64,000 nt of DNA from Elusimicrobiota bacterium (GCA_016212855.1 JACRDP010000029.1:1-64000), one strand, 5' to 3'; counted from the first letter of the stretch, positions 7,578 through 22,756 are shown. Notes: generated by a model from the sequence alone, not told the origin. A program made the numbers and translations.

Positions 7578-8897
7578 ATGACAGGCCGTATGGAAGCCGA
7601 AAACATTCTCAGTCGTCCTTTATCCGATGCCGAGACCTTGATCGCGGCAGCTAAACCTCTGGAGGACCTGCCTCTTCAGCAGCTCCTCCTTAAGTCGCTG
7701 GCCGGCAAAGGCTTGCGGACCGTCGGGGACTTGGCTGCGACGCCGTTGGGGACTCTCGCGCTAGGCCCTGTCCAGCTACGCCGGGTGAGGCAGGCGCTAC
7801 TCCTGAGCATCGCCGGAGACGACATCCAGGCTCGCCTTGAGGAGGCGAGCCTTATCCGATTGCCGGAGCGTGTCTGTGAATTGCTTGCCTCGCTCGAGGA
7901 GCGCCGCCGCGCTGTCATTGAAAAGGCGCACGGCCTTTGGGATGGGCATCCAGTAGCTCGCGCGCATATCTCAAGGATGCTCGGGATCGCCCAACTCACT
8001 GTCGAAGGCGACATAGTGCAGGGAGAGGCCGACCTTAGAGGGCTGCTCAAGCCGGAGTCCGATAAGTTCAAGCAGGCGCTACGAGCGATCTACCTCAAGC
8101 TGCTTGCCGCGCGACAGGGCATGGCCGGCTTCAACGAATGGCAGGACCCCGCCTCGATTCTCTCCAAAGGGCAGGAATCGGCTTGCCTGGCCTTCGCCTT
8201 CCTTTGCCGCGTCTCGGGAGCCAAACCGGAGCTCCTAGTTTCGGTGGGCCAACAAGAAGTGTGCTACGAGAGTGCCTCGATCAAGTATCGCCACGACCAA
8301 GTCGTCGACGCGACCAGGGCCGCGCTCTTGAAGCTCGGCCGGCCGATGCCGCTGGACATGCTTCAGGCTTGGCTGAAAAAGAAGAAAAACATCGAGACGA
8401 CCACGGACTTCCTACGACGCTGCGTCGAGCTCTCGCGCGACCTTGGCCTCGAGAAAAGCGGCTCGGTCGGACTGCGGAGCTGGACCTACTTCGATGCCCA
8501 TAGCCTGCACGCGATGGCGCAAGCCGCGTTGGTGGCGATCGGAAAGCCCGCGCATCACGAGACTATCGCCGCGAAGGTAGACGAGCTCTACCCGCATCGT
8601 GCGCCCATAAACCCGGTCAGCCTCCACACGATGCTCGCCATCCATAAAGACGAATTCGTGCTGGCGCGGCATGGCGGCATCTTCGGCCTGCCGGAGTGGG
8701 AGGAGCGGGCGGTGACGAGCCTCAAAGACTTCCTGATCGAGTTCCTGCGCGAGATGGACGGCAAGGCCACGCGCCAGGAGATGCTCGCCGCCGCGCAGGC
8801 GAAGGGCTACAAGCCGTCGTCCGTCAGCACCATCCTCCACTTGAACAAGGGGCAGTTCCGGCAAGTGAAGCGGGGGGAGTGGGGGCTCACTCCGTGA
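7578..8897 (+). CDS. HARE-HTH domain protein with RNAP alpha-CTD-like N-terminus
   Basis: This is a 439-residue cytoplasmic protein. Residues about 28-72 (LEDLPLQQLLLKSLAGKGLRTVGDLAATPLGTLALGPVQLRRVRQAL) look like the helix-hairpin-helix fold of RNA polymerase alpha C-terminal domains. Residues about 310-375 (HAMAQAALVAIGKPAHHETIAAKVDELYP...KDEFVLARHGGIFGLPEWE) match the HARE-HTH module of RNAP delta and ASXL proteins. A second similar winged-helix repeat follows to the end. Together these suggest a nucleic-acid or RNA-polymerase-associated regulator. No clear Shine-Dalgarno is visible, and an in-frame ATG at 7590 is an alternative start. Confidence 0.65.
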   Translation: MTGRMEAENILSRPLSDAETLIAAAKPLEDLPLQQLLLKSLAGKGLRTVGDLAATPLGTLALGPVQLRRVRQALLLSIAGDDIQARLEEASLIRLPERVCELLASLEERRRAVIEKAHGLWDGHPVARAHISRMLGIAQLTVEGDIVQGEADLRGLLKPESDKFKQALRAIYLKLLAARQGMAGFNEWQDPASILSKGQESACLAFAFLCRVSGAKPELLVSVGQQEVCYESASIKYRHDQVVDATRAALLKLGRPMPLDMLQAWLKKKKNIETTTDFLRRCVELSRDLGLEKSGSVGLRSWTYFDAHSLHAMAQAALVAIGKPAHHETIAAKVDELYPHRAPINPVSLHTMLAIHKDEFVLARHGGIFGLPEWEERAVTSLKDFLIEFLREMDGKATRQEMLAAAQAKGYKPSSVSTILHLNKGQFRQVKRGEWGLTP

Positions 8898-8904
8898 ACC
8901 GCGC

Positions 8905-9324
8905 TTAGACGCCGCCTCTGCCGCGGAGTAAGGTCCGCAGGCGCTCCAGAAAGGCCGCGATCTCGAAGGGCTTCGAGTAATAGTCGCTGGCTCCGGCTTT
9001 GACCGCGATATCCATATATCCCGGCCCAGTTCTTCCGCTCACCACGATGATGGGCAGTGTCTTCGTACTGGGATGAGATCGAAGTGCCTTCACGAGGACG
9101 ATCCCGCTCATCTTGGGCAGGTCCCAATCGGTAATGATCGCGTCCACCCGGTTGGCGCGCAAATAGTCGAGCGCGGACTCGGCGCTCTCCGCTACGTGAT
9201 AGGTCAGGTCCTGAGCTTGCTGCGCGAAAAGACGTTCGTAGAAGGTCCGCATCAGCATATCGTCTTCGACGATCAGGATGAGAGGGCGGACAGGAACTTT
9301 TGAGCGTGATGATTTGTTCGTCAT
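8905..9324 (-). CDS. Single-domain response regulator
   Basis: The 139-residue protein is a lone receiver domain: acidic pair ED in IVEDD (about residue 20), phosphoacceptor Asp66 in ITDWDLPKMSG, Ser96 in VVSG and Lys118 in YYSKPFE. No output domain is present, so it would act as a CheY-like or phosphorelay intermediate. The ATG at 9324 follows AGAGAG. A copy of the CTGCAT-N5-TTGATC motif lies 43 nt upstream, linking it to the sigma-54-like system at 21.4-24 kb. The hybrid kinase at 10277 is the nearest potential partner. Confidence 0.88.
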   Translation of the reverse strand: MTNKSSRSKVPVRPLILIVEDDMLMRTFYERLFAQQAQDLTYHVAESAESALDYLRANRVDAIITDWDLPKMSGIVLVKALRSHPSTKTLPIIVVSGRTGPGYMDIAVKAGASDYYSKPFEIAAFLERLRTLLRGRGGV

Positions 9325-9366
9325 GGGGATCTCTCTTGCCGCCGTTGGGCGGCGATATCCCCTTGT

Positions 9367-9383
9367 GATCAATTTTCATGCAG
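9367..9383 (-). promoter_or_regulatory. Variant sigma-54-like promoter, copy 1
   Basis: CTGCATGAAAATTGATC reads toward the response-regulator gene. It aligns with the sigma-54 consensus TGGCAyr-N4-TTGCw at G, C, A, Y, R and TTG, but carries TG for GG at -24 and GA for GC at -12. Eight bases after TTGATC, all three copies carry a related RTRTC sequence. The start site would fall near 9356. Confidence 0.6.
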
Positions 9384-9440
9384 TTAGGTGGGACTTTGGA
9401 CCCTGGCCGATGGTCCTACTCTCGCAAGGACCAATGCTCC

Positions 9441-9582
9441 TTTAAGTGTCAAGGTTCCCGGCCTACACTAAGTTAGACGCACCTAACCTGTGTAGTCCGG
9501 GGGATTGGCCCCGGGGTATCCACGATCCGACCTCAATCGGATGAGTCCACGGGAAACGACTAAAATCGTTTCCCGTTTTTTA
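9441..9582 (+). ncRNA. Structured leader RNA with terminator, copy 1 (riboswitch-like)
   Basis: The region shares a long conserved core with 15336-15470 on the other strand: GTTCCCGG, a closing stem GGcCTACA/TGTAGtCC, GGGGrATTGGCCCyGGGG, TATCCACG, and the hairpin ATCCGA-CCTCAA-TCGGAT followed by GAG. It ends in a terminator (GGGAAACGA / TCGTTTCCC, then GTTTTTTATT). It stands upstream of the gene at 9640. The outer stem is GGcCTACA/TGTAGtCC here and GGCTA/TAGCC in the other copy, so pairing is kept while sequence changes. I do not recognise a known riboswitch class. Confidence 0.6.
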
Positions 9583-9639
9583 TTGGACCGGCGCCTTGCC
9601 CGGCGGTAAGAACGGGGACATAGTGGAGGTTAATAGGTT

Positions 9640-10077
9640 ATGGATCGCAGAAGTATCGGCATGTCGGAATCCGTGAGCAAGATTCAACCCGCGCCAACGT
9701 CAGCCGCGGGACAGTTTAACCGTGACCTGCAGCGCGCGGGGCTACCTGATGCAGGGGCAAGCAGCGACCAATGGCGGTATCTATTGACCCTGGTGTGCAC
9801 GGAGTACGCCTATTGCACGATGTACGGCGTCAACATCGTCGACGGGAACATCATCTCGTGCGCGAACATCCAGCGAAGCCTGACGTTCGGCCCTACGACG
9901 GCGGACGCCGCAGCGACACCCGCGTTCGACGAATACTGGCAGGCGCTGCAGACGCTGTGCGGCCGTATCCGTAACGGACACTTGGCTGAGCTGAGGTTCA
10001 ATCGGGGAAAACCGGTGAGCGCGAGGACGAGCGAAGGCGGGCGTCGGTTCAAGCGGCTGCTGCGGACGGATTCTTAA
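9640..10077 (+). CDS. Hypothetical protein under the structured leader
   Basis: This 145-residue cytoplasmic protein has no recognisable family. Its middle (WRYLLTLVCTEYAYCTMYGVNIVDGNIISCANIQ) contains three cysteines, and its C-terminus is basic (RTSEGGRRFKRLLRTDS). GGAGG 10 nt before the ATG at 9640 supports the start. The gene lies directly behind the leader RNA at 9441-9582, whose other copy precedes the radical SAM gene, so the two genes probably share a signal. It may have a role in the same peptide pathway, but nothing in the protein shows it. Confidence 0.6.
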   Translation: MDRRSIGMSESVSKIQPAPTSAAGQFNRDLQRAGLPDAGASSDQWRYLLTLVCTEYAYCTMYGVNIVDGNIISCANIQRSLTFGPTTADAAATPAFDEYWQALQTLCGRIRNGHLAELRFNRGKPVSARTSEGGRRFKRLLRTDS

Positions 10078-10085
10078 GGGGAACG

Positions 10086-10256
10086 TCAGACGACAAGGAT
10101 GTCCCACGAGCCGGCCGGATTCTTCATCACGGCGGTCAGGCGACCTCTGCGAGATAGAATCTCGTCGGGCTTCGCGCGCGCGCAGAATTTCTGGAAGCTT
10201 GCGGCTTTGATTAGGACGCTGCGGAATCTAGTAGTTGCGGCAGGCTCTAGGATCAA
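10086..10256 (-). CDS. Possible small protein after the histidine kinase
   Basis: A frame of about 56 residues (ILEPAATTRFRSVLIKAASF... ending GSWDILVV) follows the histidine-kinase stop by 20 nt, with a TTG start weakly supported by GGAACTC. The residues look more protein-like than the surrounding noncoding frames. It also stays open upstream inside the kinase gene, so the start is uncertain. No homology is recognised. Confidence 0.3.
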   Translation of the reverse strand: MILEPAATTRFRSVLIKAASFQKFCARAKPDEILSRRGRLTAVMKNPAGSWDILVV

Positions 10257-10276
10257 TTGAGTTCCGCAAGGCTGCC

Positions 10277-12376
10277 TCAGGCGTCGTCCCCTGACGCCGG
10301 TGACTTCGGCCCGCCGGGATTTGCGTTCCACGGCGGCACCTTGTCGACTACTCCCCGAAGGTGCTGATAGTTGGCGAACCTTTCCGCCGGGTGTCCCGTT
10401 GCAAGGTAGATTTCGCCAAATCCTAGAGCGTGAATCCGAAGGGATTCCTCGGCGCCGTCGATTCCGTCAGCAAGCTTCGCGTCCACATACACGGGCGTCC
10501 TGAAGTCGATCGCGGCAGCTCCCCGAATGAATGCCTCCGACGAGGAAAACGCTCGAAAGCGTTTGCCGCTCTCGGACGCTTCGTTCTGCCATGTCATTCG
10601 CGTCAGGGGATCATCGTCGATCAATACCGCGTCGAACAAAACTGGGGTGACTATGGCGGGCGAATCGGACTCGCGGATTCGAAATGGAACTAGGCGCGCC
10701 AATTCCTTAGGGAAAAGTCGAATCCCAAGTGTTTTGCAGATCGCCATCACCTCGTCGTCGTCATGACGGCCTGTGACGAGTATGGCCTGGTGGAGTAGGC
10801 CGAGTTCTGTGGCGATATCGAGCCCGGTTTCAGCTCCCTCACCCAGCTCGTAGTCTAGGAGGTAGGTTGCACGTAGGGCCTCAGCCTGATTTTTATTGAC
10901 CCAATTGCGAAGATCGTCAGGCGCGAGGAAGTAACAGGCCCGGATATCCCGGACAACAGCGTTCGCGTCAACCAGGCGCTTTCTCCAAATGTCGTGTATG
11001 TTCGGGTCATCATCCAGAATGACGACGGGTGCTCCCGCAAGTAGGGATACCTCGGTAGCGAACCAGTCTGGAGCGTCCGCGCTCGGGATCAGCAAAGCCA
11101 CGGTGGCGCCCTTCTGGGCGGGGGATTCGATCTCCAGGCGCCCGCCCCAGGATTCGGCGCAGGAGCGGGCGTGATGCAAGCCGCGCCCATGGCCGCCTTC
11201 CTTGCCATAGCTGGCTCCGCGCTGACCTAGCTTCGCCAGTATCTCGGGGGGGATTCCCTTTCCATTGTCCTTGACGCGGACGGAGATTTCGCCGTTCACC
11301 GAGGAAAGAGCTACGCGGACCCAGCCGGGGCCCTTAGCGAGCGCCTCGACGGCATTATTGATGAGATTGGAGAGAACGCGCTGAAACTCCACGCGCTGGA
11401 CTTGGGCGAAGAGGCCGTATGAATCGGAATCGTACTCGACGCCGATCTCCACGCCGGGGCCGAACTCGATCGGCTTAGTGGAGACGACGGAGTCGATGAG
11501 GCTGGAGAGCAACTGAACGGAGGTCGGCCCGCCGTGTTCGAAGGCGCTTGTCTCGCTAGCCAGCGCTTCCTTCCCGGTCTCGGTCGTCCGATAGCGGATC
11601 AGAACGCTGTTGGCGATGCCGCTGAGGCGGCTGATGGCGTTCCGCAGCATGGCGCGCTTCTTCTCCCATTGGGCGGGGTCGTTTGAGACGATCTCAAGGA
11701 CCGCCAAAGGGGAACGTATGTCGTGCGCGACCTGGGCGCTGAAATCGAAGAGGGCGGCGGCCACAGCCTGATTGCGGCTCAACGCTATATGCTCCTGGTT
11801 CTTTCGGCGGAGCTCCTCGAGTTCCGATATGCCTAGCGGCTTTTCGGCGGCTAAGCCTTGTCGGAGGGGATCGAGAATCTCCGCCGCGAATCTCCTTCGC
11901 GCGCGGATCAAGATGGAGATGATCGCCAGTGACAAGATGATCGTGATTCCGAAAATGACGGCTAAGGGGGCGAACGTAGTCCAACCGTTGATGATGAAAA
12001 CGAAATCATGCTGACCCGGTCCCATGGCCTTCCGCCGGACCAACCAACGAAAAATTCCTCCGTCGGTCGCACGGCAAGGGTCCTGGGCTGACGGCGGATA
12101 AATGAGTTCCGCCGCGGCTCCTCGGCAGAGAGCGACAGTGGCCGCATCCGCATTGCGGAGGCCGGTCAATAAGGTCGCCTCGATCAGCGGCCGGTTATCC
12201 TGCTGTATGCCGAGGCTCGCGGTCTCGACCACTCGATCGATGGCGCGGAGTTGCGCTGAGTATTCGTTATGAGCGAGATAGCCGAGGTAGCCGAGTTGAA
12301 GACATAGCACGGTCCCGGTGGCGAGGGCGAGCGGCCGGTTTGCGTTCCGGTCGATCCATTCCTTCAGATCGGTCAT
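10277..12376 (-). CDS. Hybrid sensor histidine kinase with two C-terminal receiver-like domains
   Basis: The 699-residue inner-membrane protein has TM segments near residues 15-36 and 133-157 flanking an approximately 95-residue periplasmic domain. A HisKA box follows with His218 (AQVAHDIRSPL), then an HATPase with N box NLINNAVEAL (337-346) and DNGKGIP (370-376). Two receiver-like domains complete it: one with DDD at 455-457, Asp508 and Lys557; a second degenerate one around DDD 587-589 and Asp632. Its ATG overlaps the stop of the solute-binding-protein gene by 4 nt, so the kinase probably reads ligand occupancy of that protein. Output likely goes to the receiver at 8905 or the activator at 21401. 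Confidence 0.9.
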   Translation of the reverse strand: MTDLKEWIDRNANRPLALATGTVLCLQLGYLGYLAHNEYSAQLRAIDRVVETASLGIQQDNRPLIEATLLTGLRNADAATVALCRGAAAELIYPPSAQDPCRATDGGIFRWLVRRKAMGPGQHDFVFIINGWTTFAPLAVIFGITIILSLAIISILIRARRRFAAEILDPLRQGLAAEKPLGISELEELRRKNQEHIALSRNQAVAAALFDFSAQVAHDIRSPLAVLEIVSNDPAQWEKKRAMLRNAISRLSGIANSVLIRYRTTETGKEALASETSAFEHGGPTSVQLLSSLIDSVVSTKPIEFGPGVEIGVEYDSDSYGLFAQVQRVEFQRVLSNLINNAVEALAKGPGWVRVALSSVNGEISVRVKDNGKGIPPEILAKLGQRGASYGKEGGHGRGLHHARSCAESWGGRLEIESPAQKGATVALLIPSADAPDWFATEVSLLAGAPVVILDDDPNIHDIWRKRLVDANAVVRDIRACYFLAPDDLRNWVNKNQAEALRATYLLDYELGEGAETGLDIATELGLLHQAILVTGRHDDDEVMAICKTLGIRLFPKELARLVPFRIRESDSPAIVTPVLFDAVLIDDDPLTRMTWQNEASESGKRFRAFSSSEAFIRGAAAIDFRTPVYVDAKLADGIDGAEESLRIHALGFGEIYLATGHPAERFANYQHLRGVVDKVPPWNANPGGPKSPASGDDA

Positions 12377-13896
12377 CGCGGCTCGAAGAGCGTGACCCGG
12401 TGGTTGTTCCTGTTGACGAATGTCTCGGAAACCCGCGTCTTGTCGACGTTGTAGGCAACGCCTCGCCCGCTGAAGCCGATGTGGACATAAGGCACTTCAT
12501 TGAGGATTGCCCTAGCTACCTTCGCATAGTGCGCCGCCAGCCGAGGGCGCTCCAAGATCGCCCGGCCTTCCTCGAGCAGGTCCGAGATGCCGTCCCTGTC
12601 CGTCATCGGCGAGAAGATCGCTCCTTTGCGACCGAGAACGTGATAGAGCCCGTCCGGATCGCCGTTGTAGACCGAGAACGTTCCGAAGATGAGGTCCGCC
12701 TCGTGGGTCTTGTAGGACATCTCCTGAATCTTCGTAAAGTCGATCCGGCCCGATTTGTTGGAGAGCTTGACGCTGGCTGCGCCTAAAAGGGCGACGAGCC
12801 AGTCACAGTCGCGGCCGCAGACTAGATAGACAGGCTGCTTTTGCGATGCCTTCAGGAGTTCGGGAATAAACCGGCGTCCTTGGTGGACGAGCTCGCGCGC
12901 CTCCTCGTCCGACAGCCGTCCAGGTTGGAAGGTCAGAAGGCTTTGAGTGTCCCTGATGAGATGCGTCGCCCGCAACTGCGGCGGAAGTCCGTCCGCCTCG
13001 AGGCGATCGTGGATGAGCGCCTGCAGGGCGAGGCGGTGGCGGCGGTCGGAGAATAGCCGCCCCGACAAACCGTTGACCTCAATGTCCACATGGTCCGCTT
13101 CCTGGCTGTAGACGCACCGGATCTTGCCGCGCGTCTCATCCAGGCACTCCGGAAGGTTCGACTTCTCGACGAACACCGCCGCGTCGACGGCCCCAGACTG
13201 GAGACTTTCGTGCAGCTTCTCCGGCGCGGTCACGACGATTTTCAACCGCTCGAAACGGGGCTCTTTTGCAGCGTAGTAGGGATTCGGCGTCAAATACAGC
13301 GTCTTGTCCTTCTCCTCCATCGCGTACGGACCGGTGCCGATTCCGCGGCCGTCGATCAACTTATACGCGGAATAGCGATGACCCGACAGGTACTCCACGC
13401 CGAGGCGGACGGGCTTGTCGAACTCGAGTTCCAACGTATCGTCCGACAGGACTCGAACCCCGGAGATCGTCCCATCTTGAGCGAACGACTGAAACCCCTT
13501 GAGGCCGTAAAGAATGTCGGCCACGGATTGGTTCTTGGACTTCGGCTTCATCCTCAGGCCGTCCTCCCAAGACCTCTTGAAATCGGAGGCGGTCAAGCTG
13601 GAGCCGTCGGAGAACCGGCGGCTCGTGTCAATCTTAAACGTGACGACGCGATAATCCCTGCTGATCTCCCATGATTTGGCACCTAACGGCTCGATCAGCC
13701 CGTTGTTTCCGCGTCTGACCAGCGGCTCGAACTGGTTATCCAACACGACCGCCCCGAAAGCCGAGTGCTGCAACGGGGGCAGCGTCGCGCCCCAGTAGGC
13801 CGGTATGGCGACGGTCAACGATTTATCAGCGGTTTTCATTCCGTATTTCAGCCAGAAAATGATCGCCAAGCTTGCGATGAGCAGTATCGGCGACAA
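12373..13896 (-). CDS. Membrane-anchored peptide/solute-binding protein (SBP_bac_5 family)
   Basis: This 507-residue protein has an N-terminal hydrophobic anchor (SPILLIASLAIIFWLKYGMK) and then a family-5 oligopeptide-binding fold. It shows the typical EPLVRRGNNGLIEPLGAKSWEISRDYRVVTFKI and RFSDGSSLTASDFKRSWE segments. The start is an apparent TTG at 13896; a start further upstream without ATG is possible. No ABC permease or ATPase genes are nearby. The gene is translationally coupled to the hybrid histidine kinase, so the protein probably works as a periplasmic sensor subunit for a peptide or similar ligand rather than for uptake. Confidence 0.85.
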   Translation of the reverse strand: MSPILLIASLAIIFWLKYGMKTADKSLTVAIPAYWGATLPPLQHSAFGAVVLDNQFEPLVRRGNNGLIEPLGAKSWEISRDYRVVTFKIDTSRRFSDGSSLTASDFKRSWEDGLRMKPKSKNQSVADILYGLKGFQSFAQDGTISGVRVLSDDTLELEFDKPVRLGVEYLSGHRYSAYKLIDGRGIGTGPYAMEEKDKTLYLTPNPYYAAKEPRFERLKIVVTAPEKLHESLQSGAVDAAVFVEKSNLPECLDETRGKIRCVYSQEADHVDIEVNGLSGRLFSDRRHRLALQALIHDRLEADGLPPQLRATHLIRDTQSLLTFQPGRLSDEEARELVHQGRRFIPELLKASQKQPVYLVCGRDCDWLVALLGAASVKLSNKSGRIDFTKIQEMSYKTHEADLIFGTFSVYNGDPDGLYHVLGRKGAIFSPMTDRDGISDLLEEGRAILERPRLAAHYAKVARAILNEVPYVHIGFSGRGVAYNVDKTRVSETFVNRNNHRVTLFEPR

Positions 13897-14037
13897 AGTA
13901 CGTACGCTCGTTCGGCGCGGGGGAATGGGGCGGTCCTCTTGGTGGATAGTCGTGCCGTCACGCGTTGACCCTCCGCCGGAGTTGGGCGACTAGCGCCTTG
14001 TCTCCGGCGGAGGGAGTCTCCGCACGATGGACTGGGC

Positions 14038-14190
14038 TCAGCTTCCTTTGCTGTCGGCGCCGCTTCCGGCCAATTGATGGACGGTCACTCCCTTCTGCCC
14101 GATCTGCGCGATGCTGAGCGCGGATTGCGCCGCGAACGCCACCGACGCGATCGGCACAATCGCCAACGCCATAAGCACGAACCGCTTCAT
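14038..14190 (-). CDS. 50-aa secreted peptide coupled to the radical SAM gene
   Basis: This small gene starts 8 nt after the radical SAM stop, with AGGAGG inside the end of that gene. It encodes a classical signal peptide (MKRFVLMALAIVPIASVAFA) and a mature part of about 30 residues beginning AQSALSIAQIGQKGVTVHQL and ending GADSKGS. The mature part has no Cys; it offers Gln, Lys, His and Ser side chains for modification. The tight coupling suggests it is the substrate of the radical SAM/SPASM enzyme, or a pheromone sensed by the SBP-kinase pair encoded next. No family is recognised. Confidence 0.7.
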   Translation of the reverse strand: MKRFVLMALAIVPIASVAFAAQSALSIAQIGQKGVTVHQLAGSGADSKGS

Positions 14191-14198
14191 TCGTTTCC

Positions 14199-15335
14199 TC
14201 ACGATACCTCCTGCACAACACGTTGGGGTTCGACATCAAGCCAGCACCCCGGGTCCTTCTTTAGAAAGCTTCCGGTCGCGGCGAACGATGCGTTCCGGTC
14301 TCCGCCGCATTTGTCGTAATGGACGCACGAGCCGCATCCCTCGATTTCCCGGTTTCGCAAAGCCCGCATGATGGGATGCTTCAAGAAAAGGTTTTCGAGG
14401 CCTTCATCGAGGATATTACCTAATCTGAAATCAGTGCGGCTGGTGACCTTCAAGTTCCCTTTGTAGTCGATGACGAGGCCCTGAAATCCGAGCTTACCGT
14501 TGGCTCCAAGGCTGGGATCGACGAGGTGATAGAGGGGGCCGTTCGTGCTGGTCGAGACGCCTGTCTTTCTGGCCGATTCCAAAATAGTTTGGAAAGCTTG
14601 GCGAAGTTCGTGCGGCGTCAAAGGCCTATCCTCGGAGCTTTCCTCCAACTTCTTGCCGTTACCTTGAGAGATGAAACGCGTGAAGTTCATGCTCGATACG
14701 CGCGTCCTCGCCGCGACATCGAAAAAATCCTTGATCCAAAAAGAAGTCCGGTGCGATAGGGTCGCCAAGAACGTGGCATTCATCTCCGCCCGTTGTAGAT
14801 TCTTGAGTCCGGCAAGGGCCTGGTCGAAGCTGCCGGCTCCCCGGATCAGATCGTGCCGGCCTCTATCGGGGCCGTCCAGCGATATCTGGAAGTCGGCGTT
14901 GTACCGTTTGAACTCGGCGACGAAACCTTCACTTAAGCGCGTCGCGTTGGTGAGGACGGAGACGTTGACGCCGGGCCATCTCGAATTTAACTCCTCCAGT
15001 AGTGGCCAAAAAAGAGGGCTTATCGTGGGTTCTCCGCCGCAGATGACGAAACGCGGCTCTAAATAGAGCTTTGCCGTGAGTTGATCGTATTGGTCGAGGA
15101 TAGATCTCCATCCCGCGAGATCCAAGGCGCCGCTGTTGTTGTGATGAGCATGATAACAATGGGCGCAGGTCAGGTTGCAGGCGTTCGTGACATCGAGCTG
15201 CGTCGTTAGGAACCTCTGGCTTCCCGTAAAGTCCAGAAGCCGCCTTACGATGAAATCCTTCAAAGGAGCGAGCAATGAGCTCTCTCGTTTGATGCGCGCG
15301 TTGTCCTTCTCCAGTTTATGCTGTTCGTTGTGCAT
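14199..15335 (-). CDS. Radical SAM/SPASM peptide-modifying enzyme
   Basis: The 378-residue cytoplasmic enzyme has the CxxxCxxC cluster motif in DVTNACNLTCAHCYH (about residues 51-61), the GGEPTISP segment binding SAM, and a Cys-rich C-terminal SPASM-type half (GCGSCVHYDKCGGDRNA..DPGC) for auxiliary Fe-S clusters. SPASM enzymes typically modify ribosomal peptides. The ATG at 15335 touches the U-run of the leader terminator, leaving no room for a normal ribosome-binding site. A TTG about 25 codons later, behind GAGAG, is an alternative start. The small secreted peptide downstream is the obvious candidate substrate. Confidence 0.88.
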   Translation of the reverse strand: MHNEQHKLEKDNARIKRESSLLAPLKDFIVRRLLDFTGSQRFLTTQLDVTNACNLTCAHCYHAHHNNSGALDLAGWRSILDQYDQLTAKLYLEPRFVICGGEPTISPLFWPLLEELNSRWPGVNVSVLTNATRLSEGFVAEFKRYNADFQISLDGPDRGRHDLIRGAGSFDQALAGLKNLQRAEMNATFLATLSHRTSFWIKDFFDVAARTRVSSMNFTRFISQGNGKKLEESSEDRPLTPHELRQAFQTILESARKTGVSTSTNGPLYHLVDPSLGANGKLGFQGLVIDYKGNLKVTSRTDFRLGNILDEGLENLFLKHPIMRALRNREIEGCGSCVHYDKCGGDRNASFAATGSFLKKDPGCWLDVEPQRVVQEVS

Positions 15336-15470
15336 AAAAAAACCAAAGACCCGAATGCATGAGCATCAGGTCTCTGGTCTCATCCGATTGAGGTCGGATC
15401 GTGGATACCCCAGGGCCAATTCCCCAGGCTACAGAGCGATTATTGAGTTTAGCCCGGGAACTCTTATTAG
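15336..15470 (-). ncRNA. Structured leader RNA with terminator, copy 2
   Basis: Read on the minus strand it contains GTTCCCGGGCTA, then TAGCCTGGGG, ATTGGCCCTGGGG, TATCCACG and the ATCCGA-CCTCAA-TCGGAT hairpin, nearly identical to 9441-9582. The terminator stem is unrelated in sequence (ACCAGAGACC / GGTCTTTGGT, then seven U). It ends exactly at the radical SAM ATG. Conserved aptamer-like core plus divergent terminator is the layout of a transcription-attenuating riboswitch or protein-responsive leader. Confidence 0.65.
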
Positions 15471-15514
15471 ACGAGGGTCTATGGACCTAATCGTGCGTAG
15501 GCCCTTCCGCGAAA

Positions 15515-17811: not shown

Positions 17812-18846
17812 TCACGGCACCGAACGTCGGATCTGCGGTCGGCGAAGTTCAAATTCGGCAATCTCCGTTTCTCTCTGCCGTTCGGCAATCCGTGATAGAT
17901 AATCCCTGCAAGCTGTTGGAAGCTTCAATCCTGGGGCCGTCAACCACATGGCCATCGTTTCCAGGCGGAGTCGTTGAGCGTCATCCGTGACAGCGCCTGA
18001 GCCGATGAGATTCTCAGGCGTCTCGCTCCATGAGTCCCAATCGTGAGCCCCCGTATCCGCCGAGAGCCCGCAAGCGACCAAGGCGGCAGGAGCGACCGGA
18101 GCCTTGAACGCGGCCACTGCGTCGTCCAGCCGTTCAAAACCTTCACTGTTGATCGGCTGACGAAGAATCTTCGTCATATAATTCAAGAGCCACGCTGAGA
18201 GCAAATCCGGCTGGGTCGCGGCCCTCGCGACGAGTTCCCGCCGCAATGCCGCCTCGGGGAGGTTTGATAAGACCCACGTCTGAGAGGCGTAATGGTCGAA
18301 AACAGCGGTTTGAAAACCCATAGACTTCGCAAGCTCCCGGAATACTGGCTCGAACGGGTCGTGCATGCGCGCATACCGATAGAAACGGTTCTCGGGCCGG
18401 AAGAGATGCACGAAGATGATCCCCTCCGGCTTCAGCCGGCCGCGCATGTGGGCTATGAATTCGGGATCGAGGACTCCCGGAAGCAGCCCATCCGGCCCAT
18501 AAAGATCGACCCATATCGAGTCGTAGCGTTCCTCCGTTTGCTTGATAAATCGGAACGCATCGTCCGTCACTACTGCGAGATCCCAGTCGCAAGAGGGATG
18601 GCGAGAGGTATCAAGGTCGACGCCCGTCTGGCGGTGGGCTTTGTCGGTGAGCGCGAGTCGGCGAGGGCCCGAGCCGCCGGCGAGGCCCAACGTCAAGGTG
18701 TGGCCGCCGGGTTTCAGTATCCCCGATAAAGCCCAGTCGTCCCAGTAGTAATAGGTCAGAGCCTCACCCGGCGGATAGTAGCTCACCAGCATATCCGCGG
18801 CTTTCGGCTGTTCCGATGTCGACTCGACGATTAAGACGCCGTCCAT
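17812..18846 (-). CDS. Spermidine-synthase-like SAM-dependent transferase
   Basis: The 344-residue cytoplasmic enzyme has a class I Rossmann fold. Motif I is LGLAGGSG (53-60), the acidic residue at the end of strand 2 lies in GVDLD (75-79), and TDDAFRFI and YDSIWVDLYGPDGLLP (108-123) match the spermidine synthase family. AGGAGGAA precedes the ATG at 18846, which overlaps the MFS gene by 16 nt; longer frames lack a ribosome-binding site. It is the last gene of the peptide-ThiF-MFS operon. In microcin C pathways a related-fold enzyme adds an aminocarboxypropyl group to the nucleotide; a similar decorating role is inferred here, but methylation is possible. Confidence 0.75.
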   Translation of the reverse strand: MDGVLIVESTSEQPKAADMLVSYYPPGEALTYYYWDDWALSGILKPGGHTLTLGLAGGSGPRRLALTDKAHRQTGVDLDTSRHPSCDWDLAVVTDDAFRFIKQTEERYDSIWVDLYGPDGLLPGVLDPEFIAHMRGRLKPEGIIFVHLFRPENRFYRYARMHDPFEPVFRELAKSMGFQTAVFDHYASQTWVLSNLPEAALRRELVARAATQPDLLSAWLLNYMTKILRQPINSEGFERLDDAVAAFKAPVAPAALVACGLSADTGAHDWDSWSETPENLIGSGAVTDDAQRLRLETMAMWLTAPGLKLPTACRDYLSRIAERQRETEIAEFELRRPQIRRSVP

Positions 18847-19883
18847 AGAGTTCCTCCTATCACGAACGTTCCGTAAAAACCGAGACCGAGCGCCGCTACG
18901 GGGCTGAATCCGACTCCGGCGAAAAGTCCCGACAGGACGATGCCGCTCGCCAAGCCGCAATACTTCACGCTGAGCGCCTCGTTGAATGTAGCGTCCTTGG
19001 ACAACCATTGGGTCTCCACGTAGCCGAAACTGAGGCCCCAAGAGAAAAGGATGAGAGGGATGAACCACGGCGTCGTAATGAGGAACGCGGCAGGGATGAC
19101 GCTGAACGCGACTAAGAACCATTTTTCGTGGCCTCCGCCTAGGGCTACTGGGAGCCTTGCTCCCAGAGATGCGGATAGCAGAGGGATGCAGGCATAGAGA
19201 CCGACATGCCACCCATCCAGTTGCAATAACCTCAACGCGATGGGGTAGATCATATTGCTGATGGCTCCCATCGCGGCTCCCGCCAGAAAAAGGATGGCCA
19301 GCGTCGTTCGCGCAGATCCATTAGCGCTCGGGCCGGGAGCCGAGGCTTCAAGGGCGGGGGCCGACCGGCTGCTCAGTCTTTGGATCAGGAACGCGAGCAG
19401 TGCCATTCCAATCAAACCCATCGCCGCATTGGGGATGGACCGCAACTGAAGGGATAAGACCGGGCTGGCAACGAGGCTGATGCAAGAGATGCCCCATAAG
19501 ACGGAGTTCCCCTCGGCCAGGCCGCCGGCGCCTTCTTCGGAGAACCAGGACTGCAGGGCGGGAACGAGGAGCGCTTCCATCATCCCCAGCAAGAGGGCAA
19601 GGAGCGAGTATCCGAGCAACCCCAGGCCATGACGCGTCGCCATCGTCACGCATGCGAAGACGAGACCCGTCGCCAGTCCCAGGGCTCCCACTTTGCGGCG
19701 CTTCTCCGTCGCGGCGCGCCAATAGAAGGCGAAGATCGACGGGGCGAACATGAGAGCGGTGAAGATGGTCATGACCAAAAAACCCGGATAGTCCTTCAGC
19801 AGAAGGTCGATGAGACCGAAGCGGTAGATGCCGACGTTCAAAAGGGCGATCGCCAGGACACCAGTCATTCTCATCGGAGTCAT
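18831..19883 (-). CDS. MFS-type exporter of the peptide operon
   Basis: This 350-residue integral membrane protein has about 10-11 hydrophobic helices (for example GVLAIALLNVGIYRFGLIDLLL and LGLATGLVFACVTMATRHG), somewhat short for the 12-TM major facilitator fold. The ATG at 19883 overlaps the E1 gene stop (ATGA) behind GAGGGA, so translation is coupled. In microcin C operons an MFS protein (MccC) exports the modified peptide. By position this protein is inferred to export the product of the two 17-residue peptides. Confidence 0.75.
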   Translation of the reverse strand: MTPMRMTGVLAIALLNVGIYRFGLIDLLLKDYPGFLVMTIFTALMFAPSIFAFYWRAATEKRRKVGALGLATGLVFACVTMATRHGLGLLGYSLLALLLGMMEALLVPALQSWFSEEGAGGLAEGNSVLWGISCISLVASPVLSLQLRSIPNAAMGLIGMALLAFLIQRLSSRSAPALEASAPGPSANGSARTTLAILFLAGAAMGAISNMIYPIALRLLQLDGWHVGLYACIPLLSASLGARLPVALGGGHEKWFLVAFSVIPAAFLITTPWFIPLILFSWGLSFGYVETQWLSKDATFNEALSVKYCGLASGIVLSGLFAGVGFSPVAALGLGFYGTFVIGGTLWTAS

Positions 19884-20959
19884 GCCGTTCCCTCGCAGGT
19901 CCTGCATCCGGGAGTAGGAGGCACTTCCTCGACGCGCAGCGCGCAAGTGTTTAGGTCGAATTCGCCGCGGCGATTGATGAACCGCGGAGCTTCGCATCCC
20001 GTGAGGACTCGGACGATCTCGGGCATCTGAAGAGCCGCCATCGCGACGGTGGCGGGGAGGAAAACGCCGGATTTCATCTCGGAGAGCTTGAGCTTCCCGA
20101 ACGGCGAGACCTTCTTCGCCGTCGTCTTCTCATAACAATGCCAACAGGTCGAGTTGCCGGGGATCAAAGTGGGCGGCACCGACGTCATGTGGCCGTTGTA
20201 GCCGCCCGCGGGGATCAAAGGGATCTTCCGAGGGTAGCACGCGTCGAAAAGCCACCGGCTAGTCTCATCCATCGAGGGGTAGTCGGCGCAGTTGATGACG
20301 AGGTCGACTTTCGGCAAGATTTCACCGAGCCATTCCGCGTCGCGGGTCAGTTTCTCCACATGAGTCGTGACCGCCGTCTCCGGGGAAATATTTTCGATGA
20401 CCGACTTTAGAACCTCGACCTTCAGCTCTCCCACGCGGCCGGCATAGAAGATCTGGCGCCCCAGGTTCCCGATCTCGACGCGATCGTGGTCCACGATCGT
20501 GAGGTTCCCGACTCCTACTCCTGCCAACTGGACCGCCATGTGGGAGCCGCCGCCTCCGGCTCCCACGATCAGGACCCTGCTGCGCAGCAGGCTGTCTTGG
20601 ATGTCTCTGCCCGTCCGGCCCGCGGGCGCGAGCCCGGAAAAATACACGAGTTGTCGTTTCAGCCGGGCCTCATAATTCGGCCCGAACTCCACGTTTGAAT
20701 CCGACGCGGCGTCACGGAAGATGTTGTCGTCAATCAGCCCTCGAAAGAAAGCCTCAAGATCGCTGTGGGTGAGGTCCTGCTTATCGAGTTGCTTCAGGAT
20801 ATCCCCGAGCGCACGTCTTCCATCGGCGAGCGAGACCGCGCGTCCGCCTACCTCGTCGATCGCATAGGTGACCACCTCGGCCCTATGACAGCAGTAGAAC
20901 CGCATGGATGAAGGGCCGGCGTCGATGAGCGTTATGTGCTCCCGCATGATCGGATGCAT
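19880..20959 (-). CDS. MccB/ThiF-like E1 peptide-activating enzyme
   Basis: The 359-residue size is close to MccB (about 350). An N-terminal domain of about 115 residues could be the peptide clamp. The E1 fold has the nucleotide motif LIVGAGGGGSH (131-140), IVDHDRVEIGNLGRQIF (D157, D159, N165, R168) and a zinc tetrad of two CxxC pairs (C272/C275 and C352/C355). In MccB this fold adenylates the C-terminal residue of a heptapeptide. AAGGAG precedes the ATG at 20959. Upstream on the same strand lie the two tiny peptide genes, separated by a 14-bp hairpin as in mcc operons. The precursors end in Val, not the Asn of microcin C, so the chemistry may differ. Confidence 0.82.
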   Translation of the reverse strand: MHPIMREHITLIDAGPSSMRFYCCHRAEVVTYAIDEVGGRAVSLADGRRALGDILKQLDKQDLTHSDLEAFFRGLIDDNIFRDAASDSNVEFGPNYEARLKRQLVYFSGLAPAGRTGRDIQDSLLRSRVLIVGAGGGGSHMAVQLAGVGVGNLTIVDHDRVEIGNLGRQIFYAGRVGELKVEVLKSVIENISPETAVTTHVEKLTRDAEWLGEILPKVDLVINCADYPSMDETSRWLFDACYPRKIPLIPAGGYNGHMTSVPPTLIPGNSTCWHCYEKTTAKKVSPFGKLKLSEMKSGVFLPATVAMAALQMPEIVRVLTGCEAPRFINRRGEFDLNTCALRVEEVPPTPGCRTCEGTA

Positions 20960-21400: not shown

Positions 21401-22756
21401 ATGAGAAAGCTCAAGGTCTTGGTCGTCGAGGACGATCCTCTCGCGCGCGAACTCGTGAAGGGAGAGTTGCGGGAGCACGAGGTGGATTTCGCCGCGGATC
21501 TGGCCTCCGGCCGCAAGAAGATCGCCGCTCGCCGCAATGACATCTGCTTCATTGATCTCAAGCTCGGCGCCAAGGATGACAAGTCCGGGCTGGAGCTGGT
21601 CCCTTTGGCGGCCAAGGCGGGGGCGTACTGCGTGGTGATGTCCGGCCACGACTCGGAGGCGGTGGTCGAGCGCGCCTATGAGCTCGGCTGCGACGACTTC
21701 TACGCCAAGGGCAACGAAGAGGAGAACGTGAGCGCGGTCGTCGCGCGCTTCCTGCGTAAACGCCCGGAGGACGGCGAGGACCGTCTGTTTAAGGACCTCT
21801 TCATCACGGAGGATGCAGCCACGCGCGCAAGCGTCACCGAGACGCTTAAGTACGCCGCCTCGGAGTTGCCGGTCATCATCCTGGGGCCCTCCGGCACCGG
21901 GAAGACGAGCCTGGCAGAAGTCATCCACGGCCGCTCCGGCCGGAGCGGCCAGTTCGTCGCGATCAACTGTGCCGACTACACGGAAGATCTCTTGGAAGCC
22001 GAGTTGTTCGGATACCGCAAAGGGGCGTTCACCGGCGCCGGCGATGGACGCAAGGGCAAACTCCTCCTGGCGGACGGGGGGACCCTTTTCCTCGATGAGA
22101 TCGGCTCGATGAGCCTCAAGATGCAGAACAAGCTCCTCAAGGCCATTGAGGAGAAGGCCTTTCATCCCCTCGGATCGGACAGCGCCGTGAAGTCCCGATT
22201 CCGCATCGTCAGCGCGACTTTGGAGAACCTTCAGAACCTCGTCAAAAAGGGACGCCTCCGCTTCGACTTCCTCCAGCGCGTCCAGGGCGTGACGATCGAA
22301 CTGAAGCCCTTGGCTCGGCGAAAGGACGACATCCTCCCGCTGATCTCCTTCTTCAACCGCGGCGGACTGCGCCTGTCCTTTACGGCGGACGCAAAGCAGC
22401 TACTTTTGCGCCACGATTGGCAGGGCAACGTCCGGGAGCTCAAGAAGTTCGTGGACCTGGCGGCGGGCGGCGAGTCCGGGCGCGTCACCGCCGATGCGGC
22501 GCGCCAGCTTTTGGCGACGACCCGCGCCGGCCAGTCCTCCGACGAGTTCCTCACCGAGCAGCAGTATCACTATATCCTCGAAAACGGCCTCTACGCCGCA
22601 GTCAAGCGCTTCGAGGATGGGGCCATCCAACGCAGCCTGACGGACAACGAGGGCCGCAAGACCAAGGTGATGGCCGACCTGAAGATAGACACCGGCCTCC
22701 TCTACCAGTCTCTGAAGAGGACGGGGAAACATCGGAGCAAGACCAATGGCGACTGA
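21401..22756 (+). CDS. NtrC-family response regulator (sigma-54 activator)
   Basis: The 451-residue protein has a receiver domain (VVEDDP; phosphoacceptor Asp52 in CFIDLKLG). Its AAA+ domain has Walker A GPSGTGKTS (162-170), the sigma-54-contact loop GAFTGA (208-213) inside ELFGYRKGAFTGAGDGRKG, Walker B GGTLFLDEIG and the HDWQGNVRELKKF segment. A C-terminal Fis-like helix-turn-helix follows (about 410-445). It would hydrolyse ATP to open sigma-54 promoters. It is divergent from the peptide operon and forms an operon with the two following genes, including a sigma-54 paralogue. A -10-like TAGAAT about 10 nt before the ATG and no Shine-Dalgarno suggest a leaderless mRNA. Confidence 0.93.
   Translation: MRKLKVLVVEDDPLARELVKGELREHEVDFAADLASGRKKIAARRNDICFIDLKLGAKDDKSGLELVPLAAKAGAYCVVMSGHDSEAVVERAYELGCDDFYAKGNEEENVSAVVARFLRKRPEDGEDRLFKDLFITEDAATRASVTETLKYAASELPVIILGPSGTGKTSLAEVIHGRSGRSGQFVAINCADYTEDLLEAELFGYRKGAFTGAGDGRKGKLLLADGGTLFLDEIGSMSLKMQNKLLKAIEEKAFHPLGSDSAVKSRFRIVSATLENLQNLVKKGRLRFDFLQRVQGVTIELKPLARRKDDILPLISFFNRGGLRLSFTADAKQLLLRHDWQGNVRELKKFVDLAAGGESGRVTADAARQLLATTRAGQSSDEFLTEQQYHYILENGLYAAVKRFEDGAIQRSLTDNEGRKTKVMADLKIDTGLLYQSLKRTGKHRSKTNGD

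Follow-up and report, generated by a model that had tools for sequence, protein, structure and literature searches.

Predicted 2'-deoxyguanosine-II riboswitches in front of putative peptide-signalling operons in Elusimicrobiota

Quorum sensing by modified or imported peptide pheromones is known from the streptococci, with the Rgg/SHP systems and their RaS-RiPPs (RiPPs, ribosomally synthesized and post-translationally modified peptides, made with radical S-adenosylmethionine, SAM, enzymes), and from the enterococci, with pheromone binding by PrgZ. Riboswitches of the 2'-deoxyguanosine (2'-dG) II class have been placed in Bacteroidetes; their ligand is contacted by residues U22, U49, C51, A52, C78 and C79, and as to their physiological role a few downstream genes are listed, coding for a receiver domain, phospholipase D (PLD), ComEC and endonuclease I (PMC8872408). 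The 2'-dG-III class works in the ON direction, on a nucleoside hydrolase gene (PMC9295807). Here we describe two leader RNAs, copies A and B, in a 64,000-nucleotide stretch of DNA from an Elusimicrobiota bacterium (GCA_016212855.1 JACRDP010000029.1:1-64000), which as a whole is called the window and to which all coordinates refer. Copy A precedes the gene for a small protein, and copy B an operon for a radical SAM enzyme, a short peptide, a binding protein of the SBP_bac_5 type and a sensor histidine kinase. The RNA belongs to the known 2'-dG-II class, and what is new is its targets. We think it likely that 2'-dG-II riboswitches gate, in the ON direction, an operon through which a modified peptide signal would be produced and perceived.

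The window copies share with the published 2'-dG-II RNAs (RF03165) the three-way junction, the pocket residues and the sequences of loops L2 and L3, and with 2'-dG-III and other guanine-family variants (PMC9295807) the scaffold; the classes of this family differ in the joining strand J2/3, and both copies score as 2'-dG-II. The targets listed in PMC8872408 recur in part, as ComEC-like metallo-beta-lactamases (15 operons), a PLD-domain protein and receiver proteins, but here the class is spread through a phylum with up to nine copies in a genome, its targets are mostly exported proteins and the peptide, binding-protein and kinase genes, and two kinds of ON platform are proposed. With the Rgg/SHP and PrgZ systems the operon of copy B has in common a short variable peptide, a radical SAM maturase and a peptide-binding protein; unlike in those, the apparent receiver is the binding protein together with a membrane histidine kinase, the maturase is either a radical SAM or a YcaO protein, and a nucleoside riboswitch would gate expression. 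A radical SAM domain with an adjoining peptide is also what characterises the NCBIfam radical SAM/SPASM RiPP families (TIGR04340 ACGX, mycofactocin, ranthipeptide PapB and GrrM), but the window enzyme, whose relatives there are of the SPASM type, lies under the cut-off with every score listed (best 112.6 vs 400) and represents a family without a model. A literature search (riboswitch with RiPP, Elusimicrobia with riboswitch and the like), with the two primary 2'-dG-II papers outside its scope, found no description of the spread through the phylum, of either ON layout or of the link to peptide, binding protein and kinase.

A sequence-only reading of the window had taken the leaders for an RNA of undescribed class, to be refuted by a hit to a known family, and this is ruled out by the full-length matches of both to Rfam family RF03165 (clan CL00123), at 80.2 bits for copy A and 73.8 bits for copy B against a curated threshold of 60 (E-values of 3.8e-19 and 4.2e-17, far above chance); a weaker match within the clan was discarded for each copy. 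Weak Rfam matches to sul1, sX14, Yfr10 and microRNAs were sub-threshold and were rejected as chance. That reading had also recognised a riboswitch-type attenuating leader with two target genes, which agrees with the RF03165 matches and with the transcription attenuators of both copies, while the candidate ligands it named, SAM and nucleotides, give way to a nucleoside, 2'-dG, as the predicted one. The long common core it described was recovered as 62 nucleotides, 90% identical and oppositely oriented in the two copies (9488-9549 and 15375-15436), both copies contain the motif ATTGGCCCyGGGGTATCCACG and the hairpin ATCCGA-CCTCAA-TCGGAT that it quoted, and the outer stem that it saw altered and still pairing is P1, CCUGUG/CACGGG in A and CUCUG/CAGAG in B, in which both bases of one pair are exchanged (G-C to C-G) and another goes from U.G to U-A. 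Compared with 200 dinucleotide shuffles the leaders fold with z-scores of -3.3 (A) and -4.9 (B), and none of the shuffles (0/200) was equally stable.

A covariance-model search for further copies and for covariation, which the sequence-only reading had proposed, found six RF03165 aptamers in the source genome and many in the phylum, with strong covariation. Matches over the threshold are present in 70 of the 295 sampled genomes of the host phylum (probably Elusimicrobiota). Among 144 genomes of Bdellovibrionota, a phylum that also bears the gene module discussed below, there was no match over the threshold; a 26.5-bit match seen for that phylum is sub-threshold, and a search of viral contigs with the exact core, a strict pattern, gave none. 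For comparison 120 loci were taken, the best-scoring ones and not a random sample, and 120 aptamers were located by pattern, two of them within the window. In the 100 unique ungapped aptamers pairs are formed in 91.5% of the cells, against a mean of 73.5% and a maximum of 75.0% in shuffles that preserve column composition and not relatedness, so that the significance is somewhat overstated; 385 cells are compensatory. The covariation in P2 and P3, with its many compensated pairs, is convincing in this alignment, and it supports the presence of the three-way junction P1-P2-P3. The published contact residues correspond, in a mapping made in this analysis, to columns 9, 35, 37, 38, 63 and 64, which are 100% T, T, C, A, C and C. 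Bases of the predicted L2-L3 kissing-loop contact are conserved as well, GG of L2 (columns 23-24) and AA of L3 (51-52) at 100% and CC of L3 (47-48) at 99% or more. All pocket residues of the class are thus invariant, and the predicted ligand is therefore 2'-dG, which is presumably also what these aptamers bind in vivo.

Of 114 aptamers, 89 have a terminator-like hairpin behind them; such a hairpin was present in 26 of 305 control windows. In 86 of these 89 loci the stem starts within aptamer nucleotides 59-71 (J3/1 and the P1 3' strand), and in 73 inside P1 itself; the start is at nucleotide 65 in copy A and 60 in copy B, whose separate intrinsic terminators, each directly ahead of an open reading frame, had been seen correctly from the sequence (Table 1). 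When P1 was enforced in folding, what was left of the terminator stem was a hairpin set apart from the U-run. Aptamer and terminator have the 3' strand of P1 in common, the two folds are mutually exclusive, and the ligand should therefore give read-through, i.e. its binding should turn expression ON. Genes of the ComEC-like metallo-beta-lactamase family stand behind many of the leaders that lack a terminator. In eight terminator-less ComEC-like loci the pocket strand with the 5' strand of P3 (ATCCACCTCC) is the exact complement of the ribosome-binding site GGAGGTGGAT, in runs of 10-12 bp and with a frequency in shuffles of at most 0.01, and we propose that these leaders are ON switches at the level of translation, with the ligand-binding strand itself as the anti-Shine-Dalgarno. 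The loci in which the J2/3 strand is antisense to the Shine-Dalgarno sequence are L047, L071, L106, L108, L114, L134, L156 and L157.

Guanine riboswitches mostly are OFF switches, and a ligand that promotes termination would follow this prevalence and also the free-energy minimum, which is the terminator fold. An OFF switch is nevertheless very improbable here, as one strand serves both P1 and the terminator, in the two window copies as in 86 of 89 loci with terminators, no separate antiterminator employing the 3' strand of P1 was seen, and the translational layout is likewise ON. The class label could also misname the ligand, the aptamer of the host phylum responding to guanosine, guanine or a nucleotide. 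Guanine-family aptamers are retuned by small changes, with variants for xanthine, guanine and 2'-dG, and guanosine is bound by 2'-dG-III about as tightly (PMC9295807); we find another purine improbable all the same, with every known 2'-dG-II pocket position invariant, including C51, which selects for the nucleoside (PMC8872408).

Genes behind the aptamers were called with a simple codon-usage caller and grouped by BLAST, which gave 105 downstream operons; the most divergent group of binding proteins (c5) was joined by profile comparison (E 1.5e-7). A short peptide of recognised groups is coded in 29 of these operons, a histidine kinase of one cluster in 23 and an SBP_bac_5-type protein in 24. 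Binding protein and kinase occur together in 21 operons and peptide, binding protein and kinase in 20, of which 12 have a radical SAM enzyme, 6 a YcaO protein and 2 neither. The order radical SAM enzyme, peptide, binding protein, kinase is found again, with a riboswitch match, in the Elusimicrobiota loci L059, L175 and L177, and in genome G145 a second copy of the binding protein lies behind the riboswitch-bearing radical SAM locus L052. The operon peptides have a conserved hydrophobic leader, a variable C-terminus and an adjoining maturase, and a conserved leader with a variable C-terminus is the usual look of RiPP precursors and peptide pheromones. One cluster of first genes (c2, in L046-L095) consists of 18 peptides of 62-82 amino acids, with a leader like KDKIIAAFLVSxGxFS and hypervariable C-termini, each right after a 2'-dG-II riboswitch.

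The targets assigned to the two copies in the sequence-only reading, a radical SAM peptide-type enzyme and an unknown protein, were borne out, the gene after copy B having the radical SAM domain (PF04055) and the 145-amino-acid protein after copy A being without family match. The nearest named relative of the radical SAM gene is in an Elusimicrobia metagenome-assembled genome, at 71% identity. In the window gene the ATG at 15335 abuts the U-run and has no Shine-Dalgarno sequence, and the TTG at 15275 may be the true start, as the homologues suggest. The nearest solved structures of the binding protein are peptide-binding proteins, including the pheromone receptor PrgZ, which makes it a candidate peptide receptor, and the kinase reads as having two transmembrane segments that flank an extracytoplasmic loop of about 100 amino acids, and a REC-like C-terminus. 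The regulon as a whole seems to consist mostly of exported proteins: of the first genes of riboswitch operons with at least 200 amino acids, 47 of 65 are signal-like, while among genes of the window 10 of 38 are. Phosphatases are further targets. A family of exported HExxH proteins is present in 13 operons, in 8 of them with an exported partner of groups c7, c13 or c26, and the pair could be a protease and its inhibitor. The loci with partner are L041, L042, L096, L101, L113, L135, L138 and L155; a weak Pfam match to Tox-MPTase2 is below the cut-off.

The riboswitches also have a common upstream DNA element. GGNCC occurs 287 times in 112 distinct upstream regions, compared with 80 expected from shuffles (maximum 105), and the palindromic motif TaGGcCctanGgCCCtt is found in 105 of the 112, starting mostly about 50-56 nucleotides ahead of the aptamer, with an extra half-site farther upstream and a TAnACT -10-like element near the aptamer. 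We regard the palindrome as a putative activator site. A strict operator pattern gave one site in the source genome, not above the reversed-pattern control, so that this pattern is too narrow and the motif too degenerate to be tested genome-wide there. In relatives a strict pattern gave 4 sites, two at riboswitches, one (L165) before peptide and radical SAM genes of the same type without aptamer, which makes the operator a separate element, and one (L166) on a contig with the same promoter copy of about 109 nucleotides. L165 (G222:C66, ~1500) and L166 (G222:C67, ~70) are identical in operator and promoter over this length and then diverge; the peptide of L165 is of the c2 type, and the missing aptamer is that of 2'-dG-II.

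With the same riboswitch and the same ON mechanism the peptide could instead be an antibacterial RiPP, a bacteriocin, with binding protein and kinase serving immunity or stress sensing. Bacteriocin clusters often include two-component systems, and the surplus of signal-like first genes, the PLD-domain protein and the exported HExxH protein with its exported partner would all suit this role. We hold it to be possible but rather doubtful, as neither a dedicated exporter nor an ABC immunity pump could be recognised in these operons, what constantly accompanies the peptide is a peptide-binding protein with a kinase, and a pheromone receptor is among the nearest solved relatives of this binding protein. 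Least probable of the alternatives is that riboswitches and peptide operons go together as one mobile or amplified lineage with no functional link; the copies do all come from genomes of one phylum, and two promoter copies on two contigs of one genome are identical over ~109 nucleotides, but the downstream genes belong to many unrelated families, maturases are swapped, the C-termini of the peptides vary, and many compensatory changes separate the aptamers. A riboswitch-gated peptide signal, our preferred explanation, is grounded in sequence, that is in the class, the pocket, folds that on paper exclude each other, the gene content and the conservation of the module. Several points weigh against it. 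Folding energies favour the terminator by ~10 (A) and ~14 (B) kcal/mol, so ON control must be kinetic, during transcription; the radical SAM enzyme fails all NCBIfam cut-offs and could be placed in none of the curated maturase families there; the Elusimicrobiota loci L037, L174 and L176 carry the four genes in this order without riboswitch match, and the sensor is therefore not integral to the module; and the binding of 2'-dG with its effect on expression, like the modification, export and sensing of the peptide, enters as a prediction. The same four genes, again in this order and without riboswitch match, are also found in three loci of Bdellovibrionota (L038-L040, ~8000-12700; L038 is from Bdellovibrionaceae). 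Just upstream of the module there, a coding sequence resembles the C-terminus of an NtrC-type regulator.

In the mechanism that we propose, the 71-nucleotide aptamer would fold as RNA polymerase leaves the promoter, and 2'-dG, if present, would be captured in the three-way junction and hold P1 closed, so that the 3' strand of P1 is occupied, no terminator forms and the gene is read. Without ligand this strand would pair downstream, the terminator would form and transcription would stop. Copy B would in this way gate the maturase, a short exported-type peptide, the peptide-binding protein and the sensor kinase, and copy A a small associated protein. The radical SAM or YcaO protein would modify the peptide, which would leave the cell, be captured by the binding protein and through it inform the kinase, and the regulon of mostly exported proteins would also answer a DNA-binding regulator. 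The 2'-dG might come from extracellular or prey DNA, or from intracellular breakdown of dGTP. More tentatively, and at less than even odds, deoxyguanosine, as a breakdown product of DNA, may in this phylum gate cell-cell communication, the riboswitches and the common operator together defining a regulon that makes and senses modular RiPP-type signals and includes exported nuclease-, protease- and ComEC-like proteins; DNA turnover would then set off a programme resembling competence or scavenging. With several 2'-dG-II riboswitches per genome across a phylum, the class acquires a biological setting and a defined regulon that can be tested. Should the module indeed signal, it would be a case of riboswitch-gated peptide communication with a maturase exchangeable between two enzyme superfamilies, and sensing of a DNA breakdown product would be linked to secreted enzymes and ComEC-like proteins in mostly uncultured bacteria.

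Table 1. Features around the two leader copies, with positions in the window.
Feature	Position	Strand	Basis
Copy A GGNCC-type operator half-sites (GGACTTTGGACCC ... GGTCC ... GGACC)	9386..9434	+	motif analysis, 112 upstream regions
Copy A -10-like element TACACT, presumed promoter	9464..9469	+	inferred from sequence and common TAnACT motif upstream of copies
Copy A aptamer, 2'-dG-II (P1, J1/2, P2, L2, J2/3, P3, L3, J3/1)	9485..9555	+	RF03165, 80.2 bits, model 1-71
Copy A intrinsic terminator ACGGGAAACGA/TCGTTTCCCGT and U-run; 5' arm is the P1 3' strand	9549..9582	+	
Copy A target, 145-amino-acid protein (c17)	9640..10077	+	after riboswitch in four genomes
Stand-alone receiver (response regulator), divergent from copy A	8905..9372	-	PF00072 E 7.4e-24
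Copy B operator AGGGCCTACGCACGATTAGGTCCATAGACCCT	15474..15507	-	fits TAGGYCCnnnGRCCCTT, present in 105/112 upstream regions
Copy B -10-like element TAAACT, presumed promoter	15446..15451	-	inferred from sequence and common motif
Copy B aptamer, 2'-dG-II	15369..15439	-	RF03165, 73.8 bits, model 1-71
Copy B intrinsic terminator AGACCAGAGACCTGA/TCGGGTCTTTGGTTT and U-run; 5' arm contains the P1 3' strand	15336..15380	-	
Radical SAM enzyme, SPASM-like C-terminus, 378 amino acids as open frame	14199..15335	-	PF04055 E 5.1e-19
Candidate precursor peptide, 54 amino acids, GTG start overlapping radical SAM stop; hydrophobic leader, variable C-terminus	14038..14202	-	similar-leader peptides adjoin homologous radical SAM genes elsewhere
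SBP_bac_5 oligopeptide-binding-type protein	12373..13896	-	PF00496 E 1.3e-28
Sensor histidine kinase	10277..12376	-	PF02518 E 1e-20; clusters with kinases of 22 other riboswitch operons

The c17 protein behind copy A matches nothing in Pfam or NCBIfam, and its best PHROGs match (E 0.22) is not meaningful. Its relatives follow a riboswitch in L084, L144 and L149, beside or inside the module of peptide, binding protein and kinase in the first two, so that it adjoins this module in three of its four occurrences. The receiver that diverges from copy A has a 65% identical counterpart, equally placed, in a second genome of its genus (L179). Farther along the window an open frame (21401-22756, + strand) resembles a regulator with receiver and AAA+ domains, NtrC-like, and is a possible output candidate of the peptide system, and on the - strand (17812-20959) a ThiF/E1-like enzyme, a membrane-transporter-like and a spermidine-synthase-like protein stand in a row, perhaps as a small biosynthetic cluster.

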